Assembly (NCBI GenBank): GCA_010024385.1
Contig: RGHD01000004.1
Coordinates: 1 to 61,084 of the forward strand
Origin: Actinomycetota bacterium
GTDB lineage: Bacteria; Actinomycetota; Actinomycetes; Nanopelagicales; Nanopelagicaceae
Direction: 5' to 3'
DNA length: 61,084 nucleotides
Shown: positions 22,998 to 58,323 of the stretch, piece after piece
Numbering within the stretch: the stretch's first letter is position 1
Layout: the number at the start of each line of letters is the position of its first letter
Notes under the pieces: generated by a model
Database searches by the model: none
The model's input: only the letters and a program-made list of their open reading frames with translations
What the model was told of the DNA's origin: nothing
Position numbers and translations under genes: made by a program

Positions 22998-23870
22998 ATG
23001 AATGAGTTAGAGGAATCCTATGCCGAGTGCAAAAGATTAAATTCTCTTCACGGCAAAACCTATTACTTAGCCACACTTCTTCTACCTAAAGCTAAACGCA
23101 AATATGTTCATGCCCTTTATGGTTTTGCCCGCTATGCCGATGAAATCGTTGATGATCTTGCATCGACGCTGACTGTGCAGGAAAAGGCAAATGCATTGGG
23201 TGTGTGGGGTAAGAAGATTATTCAAGACCTCAAGAGCGGCCAAAGTAATGATGCAATCGGGCGAGCACTAATTGACACTGTCAATACATTTGCAATCCCC
23301 CACGAGCACTTTGAAGCTTTCCTTCACTCGATGACAATGGATTTAACTGTGCAGGAGTATCAAACATATGAAGATCTTCTGGAATATGTCTATGGATCTG
23401 CCGCAGTCATTGGTCTTGAGATGGTTCCAGTGCTTGGAGTTCTTCAAGATGGTGCTTATGAATGTGCCAAGAAGCTAGGTATTGCATTCCAATTAGCTAA
23501 CTTCATCCGCGATGTGGGAGAAGATTTAGATCGAGGCCGTATTTATCTGCCAATTACTGAGCTTGCTGAGCACGGTGTCACACGTGAAATGCTTGAGGAG
23601 CGGGTCCTAACGCCACAAATCATAAGCGCACTGAAGTTTCAAATAGCACGTGTGCGCCAGCTACAACAAGAAGCAACTCCAGGGATTCAAATGTTGGCAG
23701 CATCTAGTCGTCCATGTATTGAGGCAGCAAGTGAGCTCTACTGCGGCATTGTTGATGAAGTAGAAAAAATTGGTTATGACATCTTTAACAAGCGTGCCAA
23801 GACTTCCACCGCCCGCAGATTACGCGTCTTTATTAGCGCTTATTTGAAGCGCCTAGCCGTATCCAATTAG
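22998..23870 (+). CDS. crtB: Phytoene synthase
   Basis: CrtB condenses two GGPP into phytoene. 290 residues. Both aspartate-rich substrate motifs are visible: YADEIVDDLAS (DExxDD) near residue 50 and ANFIRDVGEDLDRGRIYLP (DxxxD) near 175. It starts directly after the crtI stop (TAAATG). Its last 38 bases overlap the convergent crtYd gene. Confidence 0.96.
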   Translation: MNELEESYAECKRLNSLHGKTYYLATLLLPKAKRKYVHALYGFARYADEIVDDLASTLTVQEKANALGVWGKKIIQDLKSGQSNDAIGRALIDTVNTFAIPHEHFEAFLHSMTMDLTVQEYQTYEDLLEYVYGSAAVIGLEMVPVLGVLQDGAYECAKKLGIAFQLANFIRDVGEDLDRGRIYLPITELAEHGVTREMLEERVLTPQIISALKFQIARVRQLQQEATPGIQMLAASSRPCIEAASELYCGIVDEVEKIGYDIFNKRAKTSTARRLRVFISAYLKRLAVSN

Positions 23871-24132
23871 ATAAAACACCCAGTACTAGCGCAAAGCCAA
23901 AGAGTAGGTCTTCCACTGGAGCTGATGCTATTCGCCAGCCAATAATTGCATCTGGGCTATACATCACAATATTTCTTGAAGTCAGCCACCAATTTGTTAA
24001 CAGTTGGAAGCCAACAATAATTGCGTAAGAGGTCCAAAAGACTCGGCGCTTGAGGAGCTGTGTATTGAAGAGATAGAGATCAAAAGAAATAGCGAAGAAA
24101 ACTGCAAAAATAGCAATCTGTGTATAGGTCAT
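23833..24132 (-). CDS. crtYd: Lycopene cyclase subunit CrtYd
   Basis: Small membrane protein of 99 residues with three helices, one half of the heterodimeric actinobacterial lycopene cyclase. The signature APVEDLLFGFALVLG carries the P-x-E-D/E pattern of the domain. It overlaps the crtYc stop as ATGA, so subunits are made in tandem. Heterodimeric CrtYc/Yd can form one beta ring (gamma-carotene) or two, and the cruF-type genes here favour a monocyclic product. The tail overlaps crtB on the other strand. Confidence 0.92.
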   Translation of the reverse strand: MTYTQIAIFAVFFAISFDLYLFNTQLLKRRVFWTSYAIIVGFQLLTNWWLTSRNIVMYSPDAIIGWRIASAPVEDLLFGFALVLGVLSNWIRLGASNKR

Positions 24133-24455
24133 TTATAGACCTGCCAATGCTTCTTAACCGTGCGAACAGCTTCAATAGTCATTAACGCTGCAATTGGAAC
24201 AACGATGAAGAACAAATACTCCTCCAGCGGAATACCAAATGGACCAAAAATGCCTAGGATTTGAGCTTTATCAAAATACCAATGGCCACTTGCAATCGCA
24301 TATTTGTCCCATGCAATGAATAGAAAAGCCACAGGAGCAATTGCTAGCACTACTCGCTTAAACTGCTTGAGAACCCCAACTTTTAAAAACACTTCTAGCC
24401 AAAACGAGCCAACGACTGTGAAAATAATCATGGCTAGGTATCCATACTTTTGCAC
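24129..24455 (-). CDS. crtYc: Lycopene cyclase subunit CrtYc
   Basis: 108 residues with three membrane helices. The signature GIPLEEYLFFIVVPI contains the PxEE motif of lycopene cyclase domains. It partners CrtYd, which follows with an ATGA overlap. It starts at GTG at 24455, and a TAGCGT -10 element lies exactly six bases upstream, so the mRNA is probably leaderless. The promoter is divergent from, and interlaced with, the TPP riboswitch region. Confidence 0.92.
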   Translation of the reverse strand: MQKYGYLAMIIFTVVGSFWLEVFLKVGVLKQFKRVVLAIAPVAFLFIAWDKYAIASGHWYFDKAQILGIFGPFGIPLEEYLFFIVVPIAALMTIEAVRTVKKHWQVYK

Positions 24456-24473: not shown

Positions 24474-24556
24474 TAACCACGGGAGCCGCTTGCGGCTGAG
24501 AGGGTTTGAAATTCAAACCGACCGATTGACCCGTCCGATAATGCGGACGTGGAAAG
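24474..24556 (+). promoter_or_regulatory. TPP (THI-box) riboswitch
   Basis: The core CCACGGGAGCC ... GGCTGAGAGGG is followed by a variable stem, GACCGATTGACCCGTCC, then GATAATGCGGACGTGG. P1 pairs CCACG (24477-24481) with CGTGG (24548-24552). The invariant CTGAGA and the TAATGCGGACGT-like helix match the thiamine pyrophosphate aptamer. The ribosome site AAAGGA starts right after P1, seven bases or so before the pnuT ATG, and no terminator hairpin intervenes, so control is probably at translation initiation: TPP bound, ribosome site masked. Confidence 0.92.
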
Positions 24557-24562
24557 GAAACT

Positions 24563-25138
24563 ATGTCATTCACCGTTTTTACAGCGTGGGGCTATGAAGT
24601 CTCAGCTCTTGAATTGATTGCAGCAATTACTTCCATTACTGGCGTCTGGCTTGGCACAACTGGAAAGCGCATCACATGGCCATGGTGGGCTTTGAGCAGT
24701 GCTCTCTATATGGTCTTCTTTTATCAAGTTGATCTCTTTGCAAGTGCAGCGCTACAAATAGTTTTTATCGTTGCCGCTATTTGGGGTTGGCGTGATTGGG
24801 CACCAACTGGCGCAGTACCGGGATACCTCAACAATCGCCATCGCTTGTATTGGGTAAGTGCAACTCTTATCTCCGTTTCACTGCTTACACCAGTTCTATC
24901 TCGCCTTGGTGCAGCTGCAACATGGTCTGATGCATTTCTACTTGTTGGCTCACTGGCTGCTCAGATTCTTATGGTGTATGAAAAAGTTGAATCATGGGTC
25001 TTATGGCTCATCATCGACTTAGCCGGAACGATTCAATACGCCTATTTGGGTTATTGGTTTACTGCCGCGCTATACGCACTCTTCACCCTCGTTGCAATTG
25101 TCGGCTTGAAGCGTTGGTATGTCCTTAATCGCAATTGA
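24563..25138 (+). CDS. pnuT: PnuC-family transporter, predicted thiamine transporter PnuT
   Basis: 191 residues with about seven membrane helices. The family W-rich motif is seen in AAIWGWRDWAPTGAVPGYL. PnuC-type proteins are facilitators of vitamin precursors whose uptake is driven by intracellular phosphorylation. PnuC takes nicotinamide riboside, PnuT thiamine, PnuX riboflavin. The TPP riboswitch directly upstream argues strongly for thiamine. The next gene, a P-loop kinase, overlaps by 20 bases and is the obvious candidate for the trapping kinase. Confidence 0.88.
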   Translation: MSFTVFTAWGYEVSALELIAAITSITGVWLGTTGKRITWPWWALSSALYMVFFYQVDLFASAALQIVFIVAAIWGWRDWAPTGAVPGYLNNRHRLYWVSATLISVSLLTPVLSRLGAAATWSDAFLLVGSLAAQILMVYEKVESWVLWLIIDLAGTIQYAYLGYWFTAALYALFTLVAIVGLKRWYVLNRN

Positions 25139-25616
25139 TGGCAGAGCCGGTGCTGGTAAAACAACGTTAGCTGCCAGTATCTTTGAAGAACTATCTGCAG
25201 AAAACACTGTTGCTGTTATTCATATGGATGATCTCTATGATGGGTGGGAAAATGCTCTAAGTGAGCGCCTGACTCAAACTTTAGAGTCAATTGTGAAATC
25301 ACATCAGAACAAAGTTTCTTTTGAAATAGATATCTTCAACTGGCAATCGATGTCCTTTGATTCAAAGCGAGTGATGCATCCTGTTGATATCTTGATTTTA
25401 GAAGGTGTTGGAGCAGGGCAAAAAGTAGTTCGCGATGCTGGTGCAACCCTATATTGGCTAGATATTGATGCTGAAGTTGGCATACAAAGGGTTTTGAATC
25501 GAGATGGCAACCAGATTGCATTGCAGATGAAGCAGTGGCAAATTGCGCAAGAAATACATTTTTTGCGAGATAAGACACGCGAAAACGCGGAACACATTCA
25601 AAGCTCACCAGCTTAA
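25119..25616 (+). CDS. Uridine kinase-like P-loop kinase, candidate thiamine-trapping kinase
   Basis: 165 residues of the uridine kinase-like P-loop fold. Walker A is GRAGAGKTTLA near residue 8, HMDDLYDGWE is the DD motif typical of nucleoside kinases, then LILEGVGAG (Walker B-like) and a basic lid region NRDGNQIALQMKQWQ. This small actinobacterial family has no assigned substrate that I know of. Overlap with pnuT and shared TPP control suggest it phosphorylates thiamine or a precursor such as HMP or a thiazole. That substrate is inference. It is unlike ThiN, Thi80 or ThiL. Confidence 0.8.
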   Translation: MSLIAIDGRAGAGKTTLAASIFEELSAENTVAVIHMDDLYDGWENALSERLTQTLESIVKSHQNKVSFEIDIFNWQSMSFDSKRVMHPVDILILEGVGAGQKVVRDAGATLYWLDIDAEVGIQRVLNRDGNQIALQMKQWQIAQEIHFLRDKTRENAEHIQSSPA

Positions 25617-52594: not shown

Positions 52595-54673
52595 CTAAGC
52601 GTCGATATGCTCGCGATCAATCTCAGCGTTAGCAATAAATTCCTTACGTGGGGCAACATCACTGCCCATCAAGAGTTCAAACATCGCCTCAGCAGCTGAT
52701 GCATCTGAGACTGTGATGCGACGAAGTGTGCGGGCATCTGGGTCCATTGTTGTTTCTCGCAGCTGGTCTGCATCCATTTCGCCTAAGCCCTTATAGCGCT
52801 GAATAGGCTCTTTCCATCGCTTTCCGCTCTTCTTCAAATCTGCAGTAATTTTCTTCATCTCATCATCGCTATAGGTGTAGATGTATTCACCCTTCTTTCC
52901 TCCACCGCCTATGACTTCAATGCGGTGCAGGGGTGGGATAGCGGCAAAAACACGGCCAGAATCAATAAGAGGGCGCATATATCGATACATCAAAGTGAGT
53001 AGCAAGCATCGGATGTGTGCTCCATCAACATCAGCATCTGACATCAAGATAACGCGGCCATAACGCGCTTCATCTAGTTCAAATGACTTTCCAGAGCCTG
53101 CGCCAATAACTTGAATAATTGATCCACACTCTTTATCTTCTAGCATCTGTGAAAGTGATGCTTTTTGAACATTAAGAATCTTTCCACGAATTGGCAAAAT
53201 CGCTTGGAACTCAGAGTTGCGTGCAGCCTTAGTTGTGCCAAGTGCTGAGTCACCTTCCACGATAAAAAGCTCGGTGCGAGTCACATCTTCAGAACGACAA
53301 TCTGAAAGCTTGGTTGGAAGAGATGATGATTCCAATGCATTTTTGCGGCGTTGTAGATCTTTATGTGCACGAGCGCTAATACGTGTGCGAGAAGCTGCTG
53401 CAATCTTTTCAAGTACCAAACGCCCATTAGCTTTATCAATTCGCTTTGAAGTATTGAAATACTCTTTCATCTTTTCTGCCACAACTGCTGAAACAATTCG
53501 TGTGGCAGCAGCTGTTCCTAGAACTTCCTTTGTCTGACCTTCAAACTGTGGTTCAGACATTCGAACAGTGACAACAGCAGTTAAACCTTCGATGACATCA
53601 TCTTTTATGACATCGAGTTCTTTGTTGGAAAGAGTCTTAGTAGAGCGAAGCGCCTCATTAACGACCTTGACTAATGCGCGCTCAAATCCCAGCACGTGGG
53701 TTCCACCCTTAGGGGTAGCAATGATGTTTACGAATGAGCGCTGGGTGGTCTCAAATCCATTGCCCCACTTCATGGCAATATCAACCTCCATATCGCGCTC
53801 AACTTCAGTTGAAACCATATGGCCCTTGTCATCCAAAACAGGGACAGTCTCTTGATAATGACCTGTGCCATAAATACGAATGACATCGCCCACGGCTTCA
53901 TCAGGTTGTAAGAAATTACAGTATTCAGTAATTCCACTCTTGTGGAAGAAAGTCTCTGTTGTTTTTGTCTTTGTGCGATTGTCATTAACAATCAGGGTTA
54001 AACCTGGAACTAAGTAAGAAGTCTGGCGAGCACGTGCATAGATTTCCTCTAGATCAAGCTCTGCCTCTTTAAGGAAAATCTGGCGATCACTCCACCACTT
54101 AATACGCGTGCCAGTAACTTTGCTAGAGATTTTGCCAATAACGCGCAATCCCGACTTTGGTTCAAATGGAGCTTTTGGTCCATCGCCATCAAATATTCCT
54201 GCAACACCACGTTGGAAAGACATCCAGTAAATCTTGCCATCACGATCAACTTCAGCATCAAGGCGAGATGCAAGTGCGTTCACAACAGATGCACCAACAC
54301 CGTGCAGACCACCGGAGGCTGCATATGAACCGCCACCGAACTTTCCACCGGCATGCAGTTTTGTTAGTACAACTTCAACTCCAGTTAAACCAGTTTTAGG
54401 TTCTTTATCAACTGGAATTCCGCGGCCATCATCATGGACTTCAACAGAACCATCTGATTCAAGATTAATTTCAATTTTCTTACAATGTCCAGCCAAAGAC
54501 TCATCGACTGAGTTATCAATGATTTCCCACAAGCAGTGCATCAGACCTCGTGAGTCAGTGGAGCCGATATACATACCTGGGCGCTTGCGAACGGCATCTA
54601 AGCCCTCTAAAACCGCTAAATCTTTTGCGGTATAGCTATCCTGCACATTTGTCGCAATATCTTTTTCAGCCAC
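52595..54673 (-). CDS. parE: DNA topoisomerase IV subunit B (GyrB/ParE family)
   Basis: 692 residues. GHKL ATPase domain: VLEGLDAVRKRPGMYIGS, EIIDNSVDESLAG, VHDDGRGIPVD, ASGGLHGVGASVVNALA. Toprim domain: ELFIVEGDSALG, ILPIRGKILNVQKA, MSDADVDGAHIRCLLL. C-terminal IQRYKGLGEMDADQL. Context next to parC, DUF7455 and the principal sigma factor is that of the actinobacterial topo IV B gene rather than gyrB near dnaA. I start at the GTG at 54673, which has TAACCT eight bases upstream; the longer frame starts at TTG ten codons earlier. Confidence 0.92.
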   Translation of the reverse strand: MAEKDIATNVQDSYTAKDLAVLEGLDAVRKRPGMYIGSTDSRGLMHCLWEIIDNSVDESLAGHCKKIEINLESDGSVEVHDDGRGIPVDKEPKTGLTGVEVVLTKLHAGGKFGGGSYAASGGLHGVGASVVNALASRLDAEVDRDGKIYWMSFQRGVAGIFDGDGPKAPFEPKSGLRVIGKISSKVTGTRIKWWSDRQIFLKEAELDLEEIYARARQTSYLVPGLTLIVNDNRTKTKTTETFFHKSGITEYCNFLQPDEAVGDVIRIYGTGHYQETVPVLDDKGHMVSTEVERDMEVDIAMKWGNGFETTQRSFVNIIATPKGGTHVLGFERALVKVVNEALRSTKTLSNKELDVIKDDVIEGLTAVVTVRMSEPQFEGQTKEVLGTAAATRIVSAVVAEKMKEYFNTSKRIDKANGRLVLEKIAAASRTRISARAHKDLQRRKNALESSSLPTKLSDCRSEDVTRTELFIVEGDSALGTTKAARNSEFQAILPIRGKILNVQKASLSQMLEDKECGSIIQVIGAGSGKSFELDEARYGRVILMSDADVDGAHIRCLLLTLMYRYMRPLIDSGRVFAAIPPLHRIEVIGGGGKKGEYIYTYSDDEMKKITADLKKSGKRWKEPIQRYKGLGEMDADQLRETTMDPDARTLRRITVSDASAAEAMFELLMGSDVAPRKEFIANAEIDREHIDA

Positions 54674-54681
54674 GGGGCGAA

Positions 54682-54687
54682 AGGTTA
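54682..54687 (-). promoter_or_regulatory. Possible -10 element for parE
   Basis: TAACCT on the minus strand, eight bases before the chosen GTG. A leader of one to three bases is predicted. Confidence 0.35.
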
Positions 54688-54741
54688 TCGCCCGTAGGCG
54701 CAAATGAGTTGCAAGCGCGCCGAATACGTCTCAGATACTGG

Positions 54742-58133: not shown

Positions 58134-58219
58134 GTGAACGCTTCCTTCCGCCTCGTGCACAACACCGATTCTGGATATGCCGAGTAAGGCGTATCAAGTG
58201 GAATTGGTGTTCCACGCTT

Positions 58220-58323
58220 ATCGACTGCCTTTTGCTAGTCGATCTGGTCTTCACCCGGAGCACCCCACCGTGGTGGAGGGTTGCCGTCTAGTAAGCCGGG
58301 GCTAAACACTAGAACTCGTGACC
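58220..58323 (-). promoter_or_regulatory. SAM-IV type riboswitch before metX
   Basis: Read on the minus strand: GGTCACGAG, TAGCCCCGGCTTACTAGACG, GCAACCCTCCACCACGGTGG, GGTGCTCCGGGTGAAGACC. P1 pairs GGTC (58320-58323) with GACC (58246-58249). A hairpin after P1, ATCGACT/AGTCGAT (58220-58243), is the extra stem that separates SAM-IV from SAM-I. About 87 bases then lead to the metX ATG. Two segments there (ACACCAATTC and GAATCGGTGT) can pair with one mismatch, a possible expression platform. Confidence 0.88.

Follow-up and report, generated by a model that had tools for sequence, protein, structure and literature searches.

Members of the acI lineage are very abundant freshwater actinobacteria and a dominant lineage of lakes, and their route from imported thiamine to TPP had been left open; to our knowledge, no enzyme that converts thiamine to thiamine monophosphate (TMP) is known in acI. 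Which protein could carry out this step is a question raised by a locus in the window, i.e., the whole 61,084-nucleotide stretch of DNA analyzed here, where a TPP riboswitch, a pnuT carrier gene, and a P-loop kinase gene make up a single unit (Table 1); the genome is Planktophila-like (acI, Nanopelagicales).

The riboswitch, the carrier, and the kinase

The original prediction had placed a clear THI box before pnuT. A narrow, permissive Rfam scan recovered this element as a match to the full length of the RF00059 covariance model (positions 1 to 105) with 46 bits and an E value of 3.3e-8, which upholds the assignment, though the score falls short of the Rfam gathering score of 54.3, so that a default Rfam scan misses the riboswitch. 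Across the lineage, TPP elements before pnuT score about 26 to 47 bits. The THI-box core CTGAGA and the covarying helices are conserved among the aligned relatives, and double compensatory changes are seen at 11 of the 18 predicted aptamer pairs in an alignment with 32 relatives. No other RF00059 match was found in the window's 1.33-Mb genome, making the pnuT element its sole TPP element. Large TPP searches with strict filters reported zero elements in 23 genomes with the pnuT-kinase pair; when nine of these 23 were rescanned with lax settings, the element was at the expected place in all nine, one of them being weak (G023, 26 bits).

Judging from its sequence, the predicted riboswitch would bind TPP and control expression. 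Given that the 3'-terminal part of the aptamer contains the putative ribosome-binding site GGAAAGGA, just ahead of the pnuT start codon, this control is likely exerted on the translation initiation of pnuT, by sequestration of the ribosome-binding site. Two small lycopene cyclase genes (PF18916) are encoded upstream on the minus strand (23833 to 24455). The upstream cyclase gene starts 13 bases before the aptamer on the opposite strand, and with so small a gap the pnuT promoter must be located within or very near that gene. At another place in the window (58209 to 58323, minus strand), there is a strong SAM-IV riboswitch of 107 bits.

The carrier matches PF04973 with 129.4 bits (cutoff, 27.3; E value, 1.9e-37; residues 14 to 186) and is predicted to transport thiamine, on the basis of its relatives and of the TPP riboswitch that precedes it. 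The nearest pnuT loci in named genomes come from uncultured freshwater actinobacteria, from strain IMCC19121 (87% identity in PnuT), and from Candidatus Planktophila records. The acI type of these loci is in line with the work of Kang et al. 2017 (PMC5301498), in which four acI genomes are described as having a THI element ahead of a putative pnuC, the same strains are called thiamine auxotrophs, and ThiC and ThiD are given as generally absent in acI.

Table 1. Features of the locus and related genes discussed in the text
Feature	Position	Strand	Basis
TPP riboswitch aptamer (THI element), RF00059	24469..24572	+	Covariance-model match, covarying helices in relatives
Putative pnuT ribosome-binding site GGAAAGGA	24551..24558	+	Read from sequence; 4 bases ahead of ATG at 24563
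pnuT, PnuC-family carrier, 191 aa, predicted thiamine transporter	24563..25138	+	PF04973
P-loop kinase, 165 aa, predicted thiamine kinase	25119..25616	+	PF00485; AlphaFold model; linkage
ThiL of the window's genome, 255 aa	L054:3458-4225; G000 contig C35, about 53957-54724	-	
Choline-kinase/APH-family protein	G000 contig C20, 7869-8543; L094:1223-2200		TIGR02721, GntI model
NadR-like kinase behind TPP-pnuT, family f90	L086:3441-3983, L087, L088		PF13521
NadR-like kinase behind TPP-pnuT, family f89	L089:2964-3533, L090:351-911		PF13521

The kinase gene had been described as uridine-kinase-like and as overlapping pnuT by 20 bases. Both hold: the two genes have exactly 20 bases in common, and the protein matches PF00485 (phosphoribulokinase/uridine kinase) with 32.8 bits, above the gathering score of 22 (E value, 7.9e-8). 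It had also been described as unlike ThiN/Thi80 and ThiL/ThiK and as belonging to a small actinobacterial family without an assigned substrate. In agreement with the first point, a Pfam search found no ThiN domain (PF04263) in it, and the ThiK model TIGR02721 is absent among its listed NCBIfam and Pfam matches. Its best NCBIfam match is NF005115/PRK06547, a “hypothetical protein” (83.4 bits, residues 3 to 160) to which NCBIfam assigns no function; the cutoff of 173 is not reached, so that by curated score the kinase is a relative of this family and not a member. The description of the family holds only in part, since distant members occur in many Actinomycetes, including some with large genomes.

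The AlphaFold model of the kinase (pLDDT, 95.4) fits human uridine-cytidine kinase 2 best among PDB structures (Z score, 18.7; 23% identity; root mean square deviation, 2.4 over 163 residues); the fits to phosphoribulokinases and pantothenate kinases are slightly lower. Because nucleoside, pantothenate, and other kinases have this fold in common, the substrate cannot be read from it. The P-loop, D37, Y40, G42-W43, and W75 are among the positions invariant in 24 kinase homologues. The fold match, together with the PnuC family membership of the carrier, would also fit a nucleoside kinase (for uridine/cytidine or nicotinamide riboside) that serves PnuT-like nucleoside carriage and whose link to the riboswitch is incidental. 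The scores against the uridine kinase models argue against this, as they lie far under the cutoffs (38.5 versus 220.3 bits for TIGR00235 and 40.9 versus 180 bits for NF004018), and the genomic distribution of the kinase, described below, does so too.

Thiamine enzymes and kinase linkage across Nanopelagicales

Of the 121 genomes of the order, a set that includes close relatives and whose counts are therefore not independent events, 118 encode the kinase, and 110 have it immediately downstream of pnuT (103 with a PF04973 gene ahead among the rows listed, plus seven confirmed by reading the loci, namely, G045, G028, G037, G069, G074, G102, and G117). Named genomes from another collection show the same arrangement: the kinase adjoins pnuT in 80 of the 80 best pnuT loci, many of which probably stem from the same species.

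A normal thiN elsewhere in the genome, with a transporter of its own, was something that, according to the original prediction, would speak against a thiamine-related role of the kinase. A ThiN-type pyrophosphokinase (PF04263) was found in none of the 121 genomes, the window's genome included, with control genomes being positive. The expected absence of thiE was confirmed as well: a convincing ThiE (PF02581) is present in just five genomes and absent from 116, all of which have the kinase. Among the five genomes with ThiE, two have the kinase and three do not, a contrast that is exaggerated by the Fisher P value of 3.5e-5, since the three kinase-less genomes belong to one genus-level lineage and represent one event. 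In turn, ThiL (TIGR01379) is found with at least 176 bits in 111 of the 121 genomes (above the cutoff in 108) and is undetected at full score in the other 10.

The substrate of ThiL is TMP. In the absence of ThiE, this TMP must either be made by a thiamine kinase or be supplied from outside, and the fact that ThiL is kept while 116 genomes lack ThiE points to thiamine, and not HMP or HET, as the substrate of the reaction, with TMP as its product. Thus, a thiamine-to-TMP kinase is most likely the missing step in the order. One could also imagine that the kinase makes TPP straight from thiamine, through pyrophosphate transfer or two successive phosphorylations, and so replaces ThiN alone, given that ThiN is absent, that ThiL is damaged in the window's assembly, and that 10 of the 121 genomes do not show it at full score. 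The retention of ThiL in 111 genomes, almost all of them without ThiE, would then be pointless, and enzymes of the uridine kinase type transfer a single phosphate; we therefore consider direct formation of TPP quite improbable.

In the ThiL of the window's assembly, 51 residues (153 bases) are cleanly deleted in frame, and the conserved DIYAMG and GGD motifs are lost with them. ThiL is intact in G006, a close relative with a kinase 95% identical to that of the window, and it is solely from the comparison of G000 with G006 that the deletion is defined, the row of G008 having been left out of the alignment. Either the deletion reflects an error of the assembly or it is real, in which case this one genome would need another second step.

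Conversion of thiamine to TMP could, in principle, also fall to another protein of the window's genome, a choline-kinase/APH-family relative of ThiK encoded on a different contig, leaving the small kinase to do something else. This protein matches the ThiK model TIGR02721 with 66 bits (E value, 9e-19), which is far from the cutoff of 299 bits, whereas its best NCBIfam match is the model of the guanitoxin N-oxide kinase GntI, with 156 bits (below the cutoff of 357). Its distribution is patchy: of 41 genomes, only 16 show a strong match, and it is missing from complete genomes, including G001, G002, G003, G009, and G010, all of which have the small kinase. Hence, we give this possibility very little credence, and the small kinase stays our candidate for the step from thiamine to TMP.

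Carrier exchange and the occurrence of a second kinase type

Eight genomes of the order encode the kinase and lack this pnuT (G007, G043, G058, G075, G080, G088, G108, and G113). In seven of them, a TPP riboswitch elsewhere in the genome heads a gene for a ThiB-like binding protein (TIGR01254 above cutoff), which is followed by a ThiP-like permease gene where the contig extends far enough (ThiB/ThiP, here ThiBP). In the eighth, G043, one TPP riboswitch lies ahead of a PF09819 protein and an ECF-type ATPase. The slot of the kinase is unchanged in all eight genomes, with a carotenoid gene on one side and a gene for a PASTA-type protein kinase on the other (both named by eye), and on the kinase tree, read without the row NANO_thiBP_G108, the pnuT rows are interspersed with ThiBP rows at three or more points. 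The scattered position of these rows and the constant slot of the kinase indicate that the carrier changed repeatedly and the kinase stayed.

The three genomes without the kinase all retain ThiE. In one of them, G034, the slot that holds the pnuT-kinase pair in relatives is taken by thiE, thiO, and thiG with a TPP riboswitch (L053:4473-7759), flanked by a lycopene cyclase gene and the PASTA-type kinase gene; a second TPP riboswitch of this genome heads a CytX-type HMP carrier. G059 and G110 resemble G034 in having a TPP element about 440 bases from thiE on the opposite strand.

The pairing of carrier and kinase extends to a second actinobacterial family. In family f93, it is repeated at a different chromosomal place, with a 2-oxoglutarate dehydrogenase gene, an SDR gene (both named by eye), and a tRNA as neighbors, and two of its five genomes showed a TPP element. 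Family f87 includes two genomes with a TPP-controlled ThiBP and an unlinked kinase. The original prediction had proposed a search for co-occurrence of the kinase with pnuT and TPP riboswitches and had named the lack of a link to thiamine genes in other genomes as evidence against its reading; the tight linkage in 118 genomes, plus a second family outside the order, contradicts such a lack. The conservation of TPP control throughout the order and in further families, the persistence of the kinase where ThiB/ThiP replaces pnuT, and its absence from the ThiE-bearing lineage also make it unlikely that the protein is a nucleoside kinase.

A different arrangement is seen in three genomes of family f90 and two of family f89, where TPP-pnuT is followed by a NadR-like P-loop kinase (PF13521) unrelated to the uridine-kinase-like one, and no copy of the latter was found in these genomes. 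The pair of f90 occupies the same slot between the carotenoid and PASTA-type kinase genes. The uridine-kinase-like kinase is absent as well from two further f90 genomes with a TPP-ThiBP (G674 and G514). Around distant homologues of the kinase, i.e., 20 loci from other Actinomycetes covered up to about 8 kb per side, there were no thiamine genes among the genes queried, so that the thiamine function should not be extended to the wider family. On balance, we lean toward the view that P-loop kinases of at least two unrelated families, uridine-kinase-like and NadR-like, have been recruited by Actinobacteria as thiamine kinases behind TPP-controlled PnuT, that the salvage pair of Nanopelagicales stands in the thiE/thiO/thiG slot of a ThiE-bearing relative, and that carrier and kinase are interchangeable parts of one salvage module.

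The proposed salvage route and its relation to known systems

We propose, with a probability of roughly 0.78, that the unit is a thiamine salvage operon whose kinase is a thiamine kinase (EC 2.7.1.89 activity) with a P-loop fold of the uridine kinase type and that ThiL completes the formation of TPP. At low TPP levels, the riboswitch would leave the ribosome-binding site of pnuT free, thiamine would enter via PnuT, and the coupled kinase would use ATP to convert it to TMP and thereby trap it; ThiL, encoded elsewhere, would then add the second phosphate to yield TPP. Substrate, product, and translational control are what we infer here from comparative sequence data. The original prediction that a kinase under TPP control would act on thiamine or a thiamine moiety is supported by the absence of ThiN and by the thiamine linkage in 118 genomes. 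Several points count against a thiamine kinase, namely, the two f90 genomes with a TPP-ThiBP and without the kinase, the thiamine-free contexts of distant homologues, the shared fold, the nonindependence of the genome counts, and the 51-residue loss in ThiL of the window's assembly. If the proposal is true, it defines a new family of thiamine kinases, a protein family so far unassigned acquires a function, and the vitamin B1 model is complete for a dominant lake lineage.

Our literature search, which covered few subscription journals, found no report of a new or missing thiamine kinase in Actinobacteria and no use of the name PRK06547. TPP control of PnuT, THI-pnuC in acI (Kang et al. 2017), and ThiL are known, while the proposed thiamine kinase is new. 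The acI THI-pnuC/pnuT of Kang et al. 2017 (PMC5301498) shares lineage, riboswitch, and carrier with our locus, but the accessible part of that paper makes no mention of an adjacent kinase or of a route from thiamine to TPP. NF005115/PRK06547 is the nearest NCBIfam model, although the kinase is below its cutoff. The uridine-cytidine kinase family (PF00485; human UCK2) has the same P-loop kinase fold, but the kinase of the window reaches only 38 to 41 bits against cutoffs of 180 to 220 and has a thiamine genomic context. ThiK (YcfN, TIGR02721) resembles it in the proposed reaction, from thiamine to TMP with ThiL acting next; however, ThiK has the APH/choline kinase fold, and the small kinase matches no such model and is not homologous to ThiK or ThiN. 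In Bacteroides, a pnuT-tnr3 operon under a TPP riboswitch has been described, with tnr3 called a thiamine pyrophosphorylase (PMC5613172). It shares with our locus the TPP riboswitch, PnuT, and a phosphorylating enzyme directly behind it, but here a uridine-kinase-like protein takes the place of tnr3, ThiN is absent, and ThiL is kept.
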